A stretch of 64,000 nucleotides of DNA from an uncultured Spirochaetaceae bacterium (GTDB lineage Bacteria; Spirochaetota; Spirochaetia; Sphaerochaetales; Sphaerochaetaceae). Below, piece after piece: positions 84 through 54,360 of this stretch (position 1 is the first letter of the stretch; each line of letters starts with the position of its first letter). The translations under genes were made by a program, and so were the position numbers. The stretch lies in NCBI GenBank assembly GCA_944389975.1, contig CALXOH010000044.1, positions 1 to 64,000 of the forward strand. The letters are read 5' to 3'. The notes under the pieces are model-generated. The model ran no database searches and was not told where the DNA came from. It saw only the letters and a list, made by a program, of their open reading frames with translations.

Positions 84-737
84 TTGCCGCCTTCATCCGG
101 CAGGACAAGCCTTGTCGGTTTTCTGGCAGCTAACTTTATAAATGTTGCGATAACCAGGGCAAAAAAGCATTTCATACTTGTTGCCACAGACAACAAAATG
201 CCGAAAGGCAGCAACACGGAGGCCTTGATCGACTACATACGTTACCATAGCAAAGCAATTGTCCATTCACACATCAATTCCGTGTTCGACCTGCTTTACA
301 AAAACGCAGCTGAGGAAAGAAAAAGATACCTGGGAGATAAGAAGCAAATATCAGAATTCGATTCAGAAAACCTGATGTACTCACTCATCATGAAACTGTT
401 GGAAGAACATGAAGAACAGGACCTTGACGTCGTCCCCCACTATCCTCTCCGTTATATCTTCAATCCAGAGAGCAGTATTTTCTCAACCGAAGAAAGCTCA
501 TACATGCGTAAGGATGGAACGCACGTCGATTTCTTGATCTATAAAAGAATCGGGAAAGTGCCGAAACTTGCAATAGAAGTAGACGGATGGCACTACCACA
601 AGAAAGGAAGCAGGCAGAGCGAAAGAGATCAAATCAAAGACTCAATCTTCTCAAAGCTGGGTTTTCCCCTCATTCGTTTTGCGACGAACGGCAGTGGAGA
701 GAAGGAGGTCCTTGAGAATGCCTTGAAAAACATGTAA
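84..737 (+). pseudogene. 5'-truncated SF1 helicase C-terminus with DUF2726 nuclease-like domain
   Basis: The first recognisable residues (NVAITRAKKHFILVA) are motif VI of superfamily 1 (AAA_12-type) helicases. The second half holds a DUF2726 / PD-(D/E)xK-like core: VDFLIYK, then LAIEVDGWHYH, then a conserved S-x-x-D-x-x-K-D segment. Everything N-terminal of motif VI is missing, including Walker A and B, so the ATPase cannot be functional. The first about 10 residues look like unrelated sequence. Such proteins are usually large helicase-nuclease fusions linked to DNA processing or defence. This is probably the remnant of a deletion or rearrangement, but an assembly join at the contig edge is also possible. 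Confidence 0.6.
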
Positions 738-755
738 AGCATGAAGTGCATTAAG

Positions 756-785
756 AAAGGCAGGAAAGAAACACCTCCTGCCCTT
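756..785 (-). terminator. Probable intrinsic terminator after ftsH
   Basis: A 10-bp stem (AAAGGCAGGA / TCCTGCCCTT, one wobble) encloses a 10-nt loop. Read on the minus strand it follows the ftsH stop and ends in a short T-rich tract (TTTCTT). It may also stop transcription arriving from the plus strand, but there is no T run on that side. Confidence 0.55.
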
Positions 786-792
786 CCGATAC

Positions 793-2670
793 TCACTTTC
801 CTTCATTCAGAATGCGCATGAACTCATCGCCTGTGATCGTCTCTTTCTCGTACAGGTACGATGCGATCTTCTCGAGCTTCTCCCTGTTTTCTTCAAGGAT
901 TGAATATGCCCTGTCGTGTGCATTCTGCACCGTCTTGAATACCAGCGCATCAATCTCCCCCGCCGTCTTCTCAGAACACTGTAGGCTTGCATCCCCGCCG
1001 AGGTATCTGTTGCTTACAGTCTCAAGGGCGACCATGCCGAACTCGTCGCTCATGCCATAGCGCGTTATCATCATGCGGGCAAGCTTAGTAGCCTTCTCGA
1101 TATCGTTGCTCGCCCCTGTGGTCATGTTGTCCCTGCCGTATACAAGCTCCTCTGCAGCCCTTCCGCCAGTGAGCGTTTCGATCTGCGAGAGTATCTCGCT
1201 TTTACTCATCAGAAGTTTCTCTTCGCTTTCGACTTGCATCGTATACCCGAGGGCACCGCCTGTATGTGGAACGATTGTGATCTTCGTCACGGGAGCTGTT
1301 CCGCTCTCAAGGGCAGCAACCAATGCATGCCCAACTTCATGGTACGAGACGAGCCTCTTGTCTTTCTCAGAAACAACCGCGCTTTTTCTCTCCGCCCCTG
1401 CAACCACAGTCTCGATCGATACTTCCAAATCCTCCTGATTTACCTTCTCCCTATGCATGCGCACAGCTCTCAGCGCCGCTTCGTTCACCATGTTTGCAAT
1501 CTCTGCGCCCGATGCACCCGCCGTTGCACGTCCGAGAGCATTCCAATCTATTCCCTCTTCGGTCTTTACGCCCGCTGCGTGCACTTTGAAGATTGCAACG
1601 CGCCCTGCAAGATCGGGTAATTCCACGGGAACGCGCCTGTCAAACCGACCCGGGCGAAGTAGTGCAGGATCGAGGGACTCGGGCCTGTTCGTGGCAGCAA
1701 GGAGGACCACACCTTTCTTGGCGTCAAAACCATCCATCTCAGCCAAGAGCTGGTTCAGCGTCTGCTCCCTCTCGTCGTTTCCGGAAAATCCCGACGCATC
1801 CCTTTTCTTTCCGATTGCATCGATTTCGTCGATAAAGACGATGCATGGGGCCTTCTCATTCGCCTGCTTGAACAGGTCACGCACCTTTGCTGCTCCCATT
1901 CCGACGAACATCTCTACGAACTCAGAACCGGAGATCGAGAAGAAAGGCACCTCCGCCTCCCCTGCAACGGCCTTCGCAAGGAGTGTTTTTCCAGTTCCCG
2001 GAGGTCCGACCAGAAGAACGCCCTTCGGAAGCTTTGCTCCGATCTCCGAGTACTTCCCGGGATCGTGCAGAAACGAAACAACTTCCTTGAGTGATTCCTT
2101 CGCCTCATCCTGCCCGGCAACGTCGTTGAACGTCACACCAGTGTGTTCATCGGGAACGTAGACCTTGGCACCGCTCTTGCCGAACTGGAGTGCGTTTCCA
2201 AGCCCACCCGATGCGCCGAGGCGTTTCATCATCGAACGGGAGAGAAGGTTTCCTATTATGAAAAAGAGCAGGATGGGGAATATCCACGAAACGAGGAATG
2301 TCAGGAGAGGGTTCTCCTGGACAGGGATCGTTGCAAGGAATTTCACCTCCGGATTCTCCCTCAGCTGGGACAACAGCCTCTCGCCGTCCCCGGGCCATAC
2401 GCCGGTGCGATACACCCCTTCCCTTCCCGAATCGTCCTCTGCGACGAACATGTACGCTCCATCCGAATCGTCGTACGCAACTTCCCTTACCCTTCCGGAA
2501 TCTATCATCGAAAGAAAATCGTTGTAACTTACATCGATTATCTGCCGATTCGTCAACATCGGAGTGACCAAAGCGTTGAGAAGCATCAACACTATCAGGC
2601 ACACGAGGTAGTAATATATCAACGGTTTTTTGTTTCCACCGTTTCCTTGGTTGTCTTTTATCTCTTCCAT
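793..2670 (-). CDS. ftsH: ATP-dependent zinc metalloprotease FtsH
   Basis: Membrane-anchored AAA+ protease that extracts and degrades misfolded membrane proteins and short-lived cytosolic regulators. Two transmembrane helices (about residues 17-39 and 122-145) flank an extracytoplasmic segment. The AAA domain has Walker A GPPGTGKT (222-229), a pore loop FVGMGA (254-259), Walker B IVFIDEID (277-284) and the second region of homology around [20 protein letters not shown]. The M41 protease has the HEVGH zinc motif at 444-448 and a downstream Asp in the D-I-E-K-A-T-K helix. The length of 625 aa is normal. It lies 63 bp downstream of the glycerophosphodiesterase gene on the same strand and is probably cotranscribed with it. 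Confidence 0.97.
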
Positions 2671-28214: not shown

Positions 28215-28727
28215 TCAGCAAGCGCCGTGTTCCTTGAGAAGATTGATTACGTATGTCTTCTTCTGTACGCGCGCATAATCAAGGACGGAATGGCCTTGGT
28301 AATCGCATGCATTCACATCTGCACCGCTCTTGATAAGCTGGGTGGTCACTTTTGTCTCAGGATTTCCATTGACAGCCATGATAAGTGCAGTCTCTCCGAG
28401 GTAGTTCCTTGCATCGATGTTCGCACCAGCTGAAAGCAATGCTTCGATCACCTTCGGGTTCTTGCTTGAGTTTGCAGCAAGGTGAAGTGCGTTTGAACGA
28501 TACTTCGGTTCAGCCTCATGGATGTCTGCACCAGCCTGGATGAGTGCATTGAGTACTGCAACAGAGTGGTTGTACTGTGCTGCGAGCATCACGGGTGTGA
28601 GACCCCATTCGTTATGTGCGTTGACATCAGCACCCTTCTCGATAAGATCCTTGATGTCACGAGCCTTCGTGGCGCTTACAGCAGCCTGAAGAAGCTTCTT
28701 GTTGAGTGTTTCAGTATTCTTGGACAT
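28215..28727 (-). CDS. Ankyrin-repeat protein
   Basis: A 170-aa protein with about four ankyrin repeats, visible as WGLTPVMLAAQYNHSVAVLNALIQAGADIHEA, SNALHLAANSSKNPKVIEALLSAGANIDARN, LGETALIMAVNGNPETKVTTQLIKSGADVNACD and QGHSVLDYARVQKKTYVINLL. Each repeat carries the A-D-V/I-N-A motif. No signal peptide is present, so it is cytosolic unless exported by a nonclassical route. It binds another protein, but the partner is unknown. A GGAGGAA ribosome binding site is 6 nt from the ATG. Such proteins are also seen in host-associated spirochaetes, but this alone says nothing about lifestyle. Confidence 0.9.
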   Translation of the reverse strand: MSKNTETLNKKLLQAAVSATKARDIKDLIEKGADVNAHNEWGLTPVMLAAQYNHSVAVLNALIQAGADIHEAEPKYRSNALHLAANSSKNPKVIEALLSAGANIDARNYLGETALIMAVNGNPETKVTTQLIKSGADVNACDYQGHSVLDYARVQKKTYVINLLKEHGAC

Positions 28728-30943: not shown

Positions 30944-30968
30944 CTATTCGTGGTGACATGTTTTCGCA

Positions 30969-30985
30969 GTGTGAATATATTGCAC
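30969..30985 (+). promoter_or_regulatory. Candidate upstream activator site for the first sigma-54 promoter
   Basis: GTGTGA-N5-TTGCAC (30969-30985), centred about 82 nt upstream of the predicted start of the first small RNA. A closely related GTGTGA-N3-TTGCAC lies at 31267-31281 before the second promoter. Upstream positions are typical of enhancer-binding protein sites. Confidence 0.45.
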
Positions 30986-31032
30986 ATCAAAACTGACATG
31001 AAAAACATGAAATATGGTTGTTTTTTTGAAGT

Positions 31033-31048
31033 TGGCACGACTCTTGCG
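31033..31048 (+). promoter_or_regulatory. Sigma-54 promoter 1
   Basis: TGGCACG (31033-31039), four bases, TTGC (31044-31047). The GG and GC dinucleotides are 11 bp apart centre to centre as required at -24/-12. Only the last base differs from the TGGCACG-N4-TTGCW consensus. The predicted start is near 31059. Confidence 0.8.
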
Positions 31049-31058
31049 CATTAACAAA

Positions 31059-31131
31059 TGACAGAGCAAAACAGTTTTTTCAACCTCCTTTTTTAGCTTA
31101 GGCGTCGGCATCAGATCCGGCGCCTTTTCTA
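31059..31131 (+). ncRNA. Small RNA 1 with an anti-Shine-Dalgarno segment
   Basis: A predicted transcript of about 73 nt between sigma-54 promoter 1 and an intrinsic terminator. No plausible open reading frame lies within it. It holds the block ACAGAGCAAAACAG, a T6 run, then CAACCTCCTT (31081-31090), which is near-identical to the 16S rRNA 3' end core ACCTCCTTT. The terminator is GGCGTCGG (31101-31108), an 8-nt loop and CCGGCGCC (31117-31124), then TTTT. It could base-pair with ribosome binding sites of many mRNAs. No such RNA is recognised by name. Confidence 0.65.
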
Positions 31132-31135
31132 TTTT
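31101..31135 (+). terminator. Terminator of small RNA 1
   Basis: An 8-bp stem (one U-G wobble, extendable by A-T to nine) with loop CATCAGAT, then TTTTCTATTTT. Confidence 0.85.
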
Positions 31136-31164
31136 CTGGGGCAAAACAGAAAGGGAAACGGATT

Positions 31165-31184
31165 ACGCATTCGTATTCCTGCGT
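31165..31184. promoter_or_regulatory. Dyad ACGCA-N10-TGCGT
   Basis: ACGCA (31165-31169) and TGCGT (31180-31184), flanked by GAT and ATC. It lies between the two small RNA units, about 125-145 nt upstream of the second start. It may be an activator site, but it is of unknown specificity. Confidence 0.3.
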
Positions 31185-31204
31185 TGATCAGGCATACAGA
31201 AATA

Positions 31205-31239
31205 GTGCAGAAAATATACAAAGTGAAAAAATTTCACAC
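31205..31239 (+). promoter_or_regulatory. Candidate activator sites for the second sigma-54 promoter
   Basis: The segment holds GTGCAG (31205-31210), a perfect dyad GTGAAA-N3-TTTCAC (31223-31237) and TCACAC (31234-31239). The half-sites resemble those at 30969-30985. The centre is about 87 nt upstream of the predicted second start. Confidence 0.4.
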
Positions 31240-31282
31240 CTCAATAGCGCCCCAAACCCTTGATTTGTGTGATTTTTGCACT

Positions 31283-31298
31283 TGGCACGCGTATTGCA
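31283..31298 (+). promoter_or_regulatory. Sigma-54 promoter 2
   Basis: TGGCACG (31283-31289), four bases, TTGCA (31294-31298): a full match to the -24/-12 consensus. Predicted start near 31309. Confidence 0.85.
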
Positions 31299-31308
31299 TG
31301 TTACAGGT

Positions 31309-31414
31309 ACAGAGCAACAGTTTTTTCATACCTCCTTTGAAATGTGTGAAAAAAATTGAACACAGCATCGTCGGACCTCTCTCCCACCCCTTTTCAATCC
31401 GACGATGCATTTTT
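31309..31414 (+). ncRNA. Small RNA 2 with anti-Shine-Dalgarno loop and C-rich terminator loop
   Basis: A transcript of about 106 nt. It shares with small RNA 1 the block ACAGAGC-AACAG-T6-CA followed by ACCTCCTTT. A short stem TTTCA/TGAAA (about 31323-31342) places TACCTCCTT in its loop. The terminator stem GCATCGTCGGA (31365-31375) / TCCGACGATGC (31398-31408) is 11 bp and carries a 22-nt CU-rich loop (CCTCTCTCCCACCCC). Two exposed C-rich segments are a feature of small RNAs that bind ribosome binding sites. No coding frame of note is present. Confidence 0.65.
31365..31414 (+). terminator. Terminator of small RNA 2
   Basis: A perfect 11-bp stem (31365-31375 with 31398-31408), a 22-nt pyrimidine-rich loop, then ATTTTT. 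Confidence 0.9.
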
Positions 31415-31521
31415 ATTGCCTTTTGTTTTTCTGATAAATTCCGCTAAAACAATGTACCAGGGAGATTGCACACGAAAGAGGAAAGGAAATACACTTACCT
31501 CGTTTTCCCGGGGAATAATCT

Positions 31522-52898: not shown

Positions 52899-54360
52899 AG
52901 TAAGCCTCGTTCCATCTCAGCCTGTCCTTGAGACCGTCAATAGTAGTATCTTTTCCGATCCTCACCATCTCGATTCCCATCGCATCCGCCCAAGTCTGCA
53001 TCTGCTTTGAAGTGATGTCGTATGAGAATGCAGTGTGGTGTGCGCCTCCTGCAAGAATCCACGCTTTTGCACCCGTAAGCAGATCAGGTTCCGGCCTCCA
53101 ATAGCTGGATGCAACCGGTAGGTTGGGCATCTTCTCAGGGCACTTTATGCTCTCGACTTCACTTACTATCAACCTGAAGCGGGTTCCGAGGTCGATCAGG
53201 CTGGTGGCGATGCCCTTTCCTTCCTTGGATGTGAAGACAAGCCTTGCAGGATCCTCCCTGTCGCCCATTGAAAGCGGATTGACGCGGATGAAGACCTTTC
53301 CATCCGAGCACGACGGGCATACCTCGAGCATGTGTGACTCAAGCACCGCCTCTTTTCCCGGAACGAGGTTGTATGTGTAGTCTTCGAAGAATCCCGTGTT
53401 CTTTCCTTCCGCCATAACCTTCATAAGCCTTACCATGGCAGCTGTCTTCCAGTCCCCTTCCGCTCCGAAGCCATACCCTTTCTCCATCAAGCGCTGGATC
53501 GCAAGACCCGGAAGCTGTTTCATGCCCCCGAGGTCACCGAAGTGGGTTACTATCGCATTGTATCCCTTCTCAACAAGCATCTTCTCCAAGCCCAATTCGA
53601 TTCCCGCCTGTACTTCGACGTGCTTTCTGAATTCCCCTTCATCCCTTCCGTCGAGGATCAAGCCGTACTTCTGATAGTACTCATCCATCAGGGCATCCAC
53701 GTCAGCTTGCTTTACGCTCTTGATGTAATCAACAGCCTCGTTCACCGGGTATGCATCTACCTGCCATCCGAATTTGATCTCAGCTTCGACCTTGTCCCCT
53801 TCGGTTACAGCCACAGAGCGCATGTTGTCTGCAATCCTCATCACGCGGATGTTGTTGCTCTCGACAATCCCGATCGCACTATGCATCCACGATGCGATCT
53901 GGTCGGTTACATCCTTGTGCCTCCAGTAGCCTACGACCACTTCGCGAGGAATTCCCATCCTCGTCATTATGTGGCCGAATTCCCTGTCTCCATGGGCAGA
54001 CTGGTTCTCGTTCATGAAATCCATGTCTATCGTGGAGAATGGAAGAGCTTCGTTGAACTGGGTATGGAGATGCATTATAGGCTTACGTGCGATCTTCAGT
54101 CCGCTGATCCAGTTCTTCGCAGGACTGAACGTATGCATCCATAAAATCGTGCCCATGCACTCTTCATCCGAATTCGCTTCATCGAAAAACTTGTAAATCC
54201 CTTCCTTTGTCAACAAAGTCGGCTTCCACTCAAGCTTGTATGGAAGGAGGGATGATGAGTTCAAAGTCTCAACCATCTCCTGAGCGTGTTTTTTTACTTT
54301 ATCAAGGCATTCGTCCCCATACAGGTCCTGACTGCCTGCAACGAAATAGAATTTGTACAT
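52885..54360 (-). CDS. araA: L-arabinose isomerase
   Basis: A 491-aa isomerase converting L-arabinose to L-ribulose, Mn2+-dependent. Family blocks are visible: FYFVAGSQDLYG, TFSPAKNWISGLK, HLHTQFNEALPFSTIDMDFMNENQSAHGDREFG and GAKAWILAGGAHHTAFSY. Metal ligands (two Glu, two His) fall in the GAEGDWKTA...GFFEDYTYNL region and the C-terminal HHTAF block. It lies directly downstream of the importer genes. Confidence 0.97.
   Translation of the reverse strand: MYKFYFVAGSQDLYGDECLDKVKKHAQEMVETLNSSSLLPYKLEWKPTLLTKEGIYKFFDEANSDEECMGTILWMHTFSPAKNWISGLKIARKPIMHLHTQFNEALPFSTIDMDFMNENQSAHGDREFGHIMTRMGIPREVVVGYWRHKDVTDQIASWMHSAIGIVESNNIRVMRIADNMRSVAVTEGDKVEAEIKFGWQVDAYPVNEAVDYIKSVKQADVDALMDEYYQKYGLILDGRDEGEFRKHVEVQAGIELGLEKMLVEKGYNAIVTHFGDLGGMKQLPGLAIQRLMEKGYGFGAEGDWKTAAMVRLMKVMAEGKNTGFFEDYTYNLVPGKEAVLESHMLEVCPSCSDGKVFIRVNPLSMGDREDPARLVFTSKEGKGIATSLIDLGTRFRLIVSEVESIKCPEKMPNLPVASSYWRPEPDLLTGAKAWILAGGAHHTAFSYDITSKQMQTWADAMGIEMVRIGKDTTIDGLKDRLRWNEAYYEHR

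Follow-up and report, generated by a model that had tools for sequence, protein, structure and literature searches.

What does the intergenic span between the end of an amylase-like gene (30943) and the start of an EamA gene (31522) encode in the genome of an uncultured Spirochaetaceae bacterium (GCA_944389975.1, contig CALXOH010000044.1)? A preliminary description of the stretch analysed here (64 kb of a 1.95 Mb genome, hereafter the window) had proposed that this span carries tandem sigma-54-dependent non-coding RNAs, each with a copy of the anti-Shine-Dalgarno (anti-SD) core of 16S ribosomal RNA (16S rRNA), and sequence comparison supports both this architecture and its retention in relatives. 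We read the two units, with moderate confidence, as paralogous, sigma-54-dependent, trans-acting small RNAs (sRNAs) of a new family that would block ribosome-binding sites (RBSs). They probably turn off the translation of many mRNAs upon activation of an enhancer-binding protein (EBP).

Two tandem units with perfect sigma-54 promoters

The −24/−12 promoters of unit 1 (TGGCACGACTCTTGC, 31033-31047, plus strand) and unit 2 (TGGCACGCGTATTGC, 31283-31297, plus strand) were scored against TGGCACG-N4-TTGC and show 0 mismatches each, bearing out the two near-perfect promoters first described at these positions; the promoter of unit 1 is also kept in relatives. No other 0-mismatch sigma-54 site occurs in the window, and the whole genome has seven, these two included. 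The units start 12 nt beyond each −12 element, and the predicted +1 positions, 31059 and 31309, agree with the starts that had been proposed. No convincing open reading frame (ORF) lies within the intergenic span, and the aligned units differ among relatives by insertions and deletions of any length; for these reasons we take them as non-coding.

Unit 1 (type A, 31059-31134, plus strand) is delimited by sequence, folding and alignment as an sRNA of about 75 nt with a predicted +1 near 31059-31061. Its anti-SD block (ACCTCCTTT, 31083-31091) is single-stranded and outside any hairpin loop in the predicted fold, and its intrinsic terminator (31100-31134) consists of a stem at 31100-31125 followed by T-rich sequence. 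Unit 2 (type B, 31309-31415, plus strand), delimited by the same evidence at about 107 nt, carries a predicted 5′ hairpin (31320-31354), conserved in type B, whose loop holds CTCCTTT with the first C closing the stem. The anti-SD block of this unit, again ACCTCCTTT, lies at 31330-31338, and its CCTCC is invariant in the type B alignment. The terminator of unit 2 (31365-31413) has a perfect 11-bp stem (31365-31375/31398-31408), followed by ATTTTTATT, and a conserved C-rich loop sequence, CCTCTCTCCCACCCC (31376-31390); it was missed by a simple terminator scanner because its loop is 22 nt long. Both units share the blocks ACAGAGC, (A)AACAG, T6, CA and ACCTCCTTT, and both fold more stably than dinucleotide shuffles (z = −3.4 for unit 1 and −5.5 for unit 2). 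The short units with strong terminators and a shared ACAGAGC-AACAG-T6-CA series are therefore present in the sequence as first described. The C-rich terminator loop of unit 2 had been overlooked, and so had two features presented below: a palindrome 5′ of the promoters and the constant placement of the units ahead of rlmE.

Conservation among spirochaetes

A BLASTN search with the region matched 98 of 197 relatives, chiefly over the core that runs from the promoter to CCTCCTTT. When a pattern free of promoter sequence was scanned over 84,980 prokaryote genomes, 100 stretches were returned, nearly all of them from Spirochaetales/Sphaerochaetaceae, including Sphaerochaeta halotolerans and Bullifex porci. 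A −24/−12 promoter nevertheless stood 11-22 nt upstream in 139 of the 141 units located by the pattern, and at most 1 mismatch of 11 was counted in 126 of the 139 scored units, versus 0.2% of random positions. The only three matches outside the spirochaetes, in Lentisphaeria (L109), an archaeal sequence (L113) and Anaeroplasma (L125), have no such promoter and appear to be coincidental. Searching with a sequence profile built from promoter and core recovered the element from 81 of the 92 genomes sampled in the window's family; matches in a second family (f17) were weaker but clear, and there the unit reads TGCAACTAGTTTTTCATACCTCCTTTT and the terminator loop CCCCTCCCCCTC. Conservation of promoter and anti-SD block in related genomes, on which the proposal had been made to depend beforehand, was thus found. 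Genomes carry 1-4 copies, usually type A and then type B; in one complete genome (L184, G093:C1:2224000-2236000, minus strand) four units follow one another about 360 nt apart, each with its own promoter.

Conservation within the units is strongly uneven. Mean pairwise identity is 0.95 at the 5′ end, 1.0 in CCTCCTT and 0.86 in the terminator loop, versus 0.49 in the terminator stem and 0.52 in the spacer. The stems change in a compensated manner: 7/7 stem pairs covary in the type A terminator, and 11/11 do so, with double changes, in that of type B, while the type B loop (CTCTCCCACCCC) and 5′ segment are kept. In predicted folds the invariant CCTCCTT is mostly unpaired across the family, with a mean unpaired probability of 0.85 (type A) and 0.74 (type B) for CCTCC, and of 0.94 for the terminator loop. 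An accessible CCUCC is in this way kept across relatives, as in sRNAs that act through an anti-SD seed. The placement of the block in a hairpin loop, noted at first for unit 2, holds for this unit and for type B (a hairpin of >=5 bp surrounds the block in 53/61 distinct units), but not generally for type A (17/61). Judged from the alignments, this pattern of conservation fits a base-pairing RNA.

The block equals what we take, from the textbook 16S tail, to be the anti-SD core, and a number of type B units contain UCACCUCCUU, the very sequence of the 16S 3′ tail as generally known. Since the host's own 16S 3′ end was searched for in its assembly and not found, the anti-SD identity leans on this textbook tail together with the Shine-Dalgarno (SD) sites of the genome.

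An upstream palindrome and the candidate activators

A palindrome, GTGTGNAA-N3-TTNCACAC, recurs upstream of the promoters across the family. The candidate EBP site for unit 1 (GTGTGAATATATTGCACAT, 30969-30987) matches it with 2 mismatches of 14 and starts 64 bp upstream of the −24 element; that for unit 2 (AAGTGAAAAAATTTCACAC, 31221-31239) starts 62 bp upstream. With <=2 mismatches allowed, the palindrome is found in 82 of 140 distinct upstream regions versus 0.1% of shuffles, a figure that is descriptive only because the consensus was derived from the same data. Its centre lies 48-181 bp from the −24 element (median 68), and, in position and form usual for an EBP site, it looks like an activator site.

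The genome encodes RpoN with all three domains, as the preliminary description had required, and rpoN is present in 194/197 relatives. The genome also encodes five full EBPs. Two are response regulators of the NtrC type; the other three are larger proteins, and a PrpR_N domain was seen in the one of them that was scanned. Taken together, a promoter directly 5′, an activator-like site upstream, and RpoN and EBPs in the same genome are the features expected of sigma-54-dependent sRNAs. No EBP gene adjoins the RNAs in the 130 loci examined. An NtrC-type protein (NtrC-a) is nearly universal throughout the class, so that co-occurrence is uninformative on the activator; two small related genomes without the RNA also lack NtrC-a, which amounts to one event at most. 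With no EBP near the RNAs and co-occurrence undecisive, the activator can be named as a class only.

No copy of the palindrome was found near the other perfect sigma-54 sites of the genome. Elsewhere in this genome, a perfect sigma-54 promoter (L003, G000:C16:2928-5942, at 1501-1515, minus strand) lies about 27 nt 5′ of an ORF for a sigma-70-family factor (602-1474, minus strand), and an NtrB/NtrC-like pair (L010) is a few kb away; the layout resembles the Borrelia Rrp2-RpoN-RpoS system. Another (L002, G000:C12:659-3673, at 1501-1515) stands immediately 5′ of two small heat-shock protein (HSP20) genes.

Proposed mode of action and alternative explanations

In the mechanism that we favour, an EBP, probably an NtrC-type response regulator, would bind the GTGTGAAA-N3-TTTCACAC palindrome and turn on RpoN polymerase at each promoter. 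The resulting RNAs of 75 and 107 nt would begin at or near ACAGAGC and stop at their own terminators, and their exposed CCUCCUUU would pair with the SD sequence (AAAGGAGG) of mRNAs with accessible RBSs, repressing them with no requirement for Hfq. In type B, the C-rich terminator loop would provide a second seed.

CCUCCUUU is indeed complementary to AAAGGAGG, and among 407 genes sampled from 400 kb of the genome, a simple energy threshold assigns an SD site to about 69%. Target prediction against RBSs, which had been suggested as a check, yielded complementarity to SD sites in this sample but no specificity beyond them; the SD of an arabinose-isomerase-like gene (window position 54360) gave one match of 11 nt, which is compatible with chance and was set aside. 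Titration of the ribosome had also been put forward at the outset. An anti-SD copy, however, pairs with the SDs of mRNAs and not with the ribosome's own anti-SD, and titration is less likely than RBS blocking. No recognisable Hfq was found in the window's genome.

The gene order proS, ank, (GH13), A, B, rlmE, htpG recurs around the units (A and B denoting the two types), and type B mostly starts 114-167 nt before the rlmE start codon on the same strand. It could therefore be asked whether unit 2, instead of being a separate RNA, forms the sigma-54-dependent, attenuator-bearing leader of rlmE, and here of EamA. At many loci, however, inspection reveals a −10-like box between the terminator and the rlmE ATG, a few nt from the latter, and no SD. 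On this evidence the gene is apparently transcribed separately, as a leaderless mRNA. Moreover, type B remains where other DNA or EamA intervenes (the latter in the window genome and one close relative, two records), and type A is not directly followed by any such gene, nor do the four tandem units of G093, at their spacing, suit a leader. We judge this reading unlikely, and strongly so. Leaderless-looking rlmE starts were seen in many Sphaerochaetaceae (L018, L023, L029, L033, L049, L079 and others); in the window itself, rlmE (32388) follows EamA and carries AAAGGAGG. A gene for a 170-aa ankyrin-repeat protein (window 28215-28727, minus strand) is near the locus in many relatives, with identity up to 98%.

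Several points weigh against RBS blocking by trans-acting sRNAs. Transcription of the units is predicted from their sequence, the upstream palindrome was defined and tested on one data set, and the co-occurrence of EBPs among relatives singles out no activator. Across the 407 sampled genes, the flanks of the anti-SD block pair with RBSs no better than shuffled flanks, which leaves target specificity unexplained, and for the type B terminator loop the genome has no 11-nt complement beyond the unit itself. Because of these last two results, two rivals stay in play. The RNAs might be protein-binding decoys, in which the exposed C/U-rich CCUCCUUU and CUCUCCCACCCC and the invariant AGAGCAACAG would bind an RNA-binding protein and keep it sequestered, as CrcZ does. 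Such a role would suit motifs that are kept among stems free to vary, the one to four copies per genome, a 5′ end (AGAGCAACAG) whose conservation nearly equals that of the anti-SD block, and a terminator loop without a specific mRNA complement; yet the most conserved motif is the exact 16S anti-SD core, with an obvious RNA partner, Hfq was not found in the genome, and no cognate protein is known. We consider decoys rather unlikely.

Alternatively, a strongly induced mimic of the anti-SD might act as a global brake on translation, rivalling 16S rRNA for SDs at large, reducing the output of SD-led mRNAs and sparing leaderless mRNAs such as that of rlmE. The lack of target specificity in the flanks, the identity of UCACCUCCUU to the 16S 3′ tail in some type B units and the leaderless appearance of the adjoining rlmE in many relatives are consistent with it, but the RNAs would have to be about as abundant as free mRNA SD sites, and the existence of two diverged types, with a second conserved loop, points to a more selective role; we consider a global brake quite improbable. 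A related and tentative idea, that of an undescribed spirochaete RNA regulon in which an EBP and RpoN induce tandem mimics of the 16S tail and translation shifts, free of Hfq, from SD-led to weakly SD-dependent or leaderless mRNAs, seems improbable as well. That the units arose by chance, or are a DNA element not transcribed as small RNA, is scarcely credible: they are known from sequence alone, but promoter, transcript body, covarying terminator and seed are all conserved in dozens of species.

Comparison with known systems

A scan with all models of Rfam 15 (cmscan) gave no match at gathering cut-offs, bearing out the initial statement that no described RNA family corresponds to the units; the matches obtained under permissive settings were to unrelated families, far under their cut-offs. 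Among the papers searched, none linked Sphaerochaeta with sRNAs. Little is known of the trans-acting sRNAs of free-living and gut spirochaetes, and a family traceable by its invariant seed and promoter, with cultured hosts (Sphaerochaeta halotolerans, Bullifex porci), offers a direct way to study riboregulation independent of Hfq, to gauge how far sigma-54 control in spirochaetes extends past Borrelia RpoN-RpoS, and to learn how a generic anti-SD seed sRNA gains specificity.

The closest parallels are the alphaproteobacterial alpha-r14 or 'cuckoo' RNAs (NfeR1 of Sinorhizobium; CcsR1-4 of Rhodobacter), in which the anti-SD motif is likewise unpaired and the stems vary (PMC10746234; PMC10253847). 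NfeR1 acts via CCUCCUCCC seeds, and RBS blocking by its anti-SD seed has been shown; it is tied to NtrC and reported to be Hfq-independent (PMC10746234). The CcsR RNAs also occur as tandem copies under alternative sigma factors (PMC10253847). In contrast, alpha-r14 RNAs present CCUCCUCCC three times, in three hairpin loops of one RNA, whereas each spirochaete unit has one ACCUCCUUU, and the second loop of type B is a different, C-rich one. Promoters of the alpha-r14/CcsR group depend on sigma-70 or RpoH rather than sigma-54, NtrC represses NfeR1, the CcsR RNAs share a transcript with a DUF1127 gene and are processed by RNase E, and the spirochaete units have no sequence match to the group in Rfam.

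The csRNAs of Streptococcus are CiaR-dependent and have ordinary sigma-70 promoters. On our reading they resemble the spirochaete units: several similar sRNAs per genome answer to a response regulator and act additively, by base-pairing around the comC SD and start codon (PMC4507080). Of these traits, the spirochaete units have the paralogous copies and are complementary to the SD, and their activator and pairing are predicted. The streptococcal sequences are unrelated. The Qrr RNAs of Vibrio are multiple paralogous sRNAs, each with a sigma-54 promoter activated by the NtrC-type LuxO; they are Hfq-dependent and gammaproteobacterial, and differ from the spirochaete units in sequence and seed. 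RepG of Helicobacter pylori functions in a host without Hfq; we know of no tandem copies, anti-SD copy or sigma-54 promoter for it, and its sequence is unrelated. Its C/U-rich terminator loop is its pairing site (PMC8295292), and the conserved type B terminator loop recalls it.

Within the spirochaetes, the Borrelia Rrp2-RpoN-RpoS pathway is likewise a sigma-54 cascade with an NtrC-type regulator, and in the genome studied here a sigma-70 factor gene near an NtrB/NtrC pair is likewise preceded by a sigma-54 promoter; the known output of the Borrelia pathway, however, is rpoS, and our literature search found no description of a sigma-54-dependent anti-SD sRNA. On the reading favoured here, the units would work like the alpha-r14 'cuckoo' RNAs and the csRNAs without belonging to either. 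Anti-SD sRNAs and sigma-54-dependent sRNAs are each known; what is new, as far as our searches show, is their union in one RNA, the group of hosts and the type B form with its two putative seeds.
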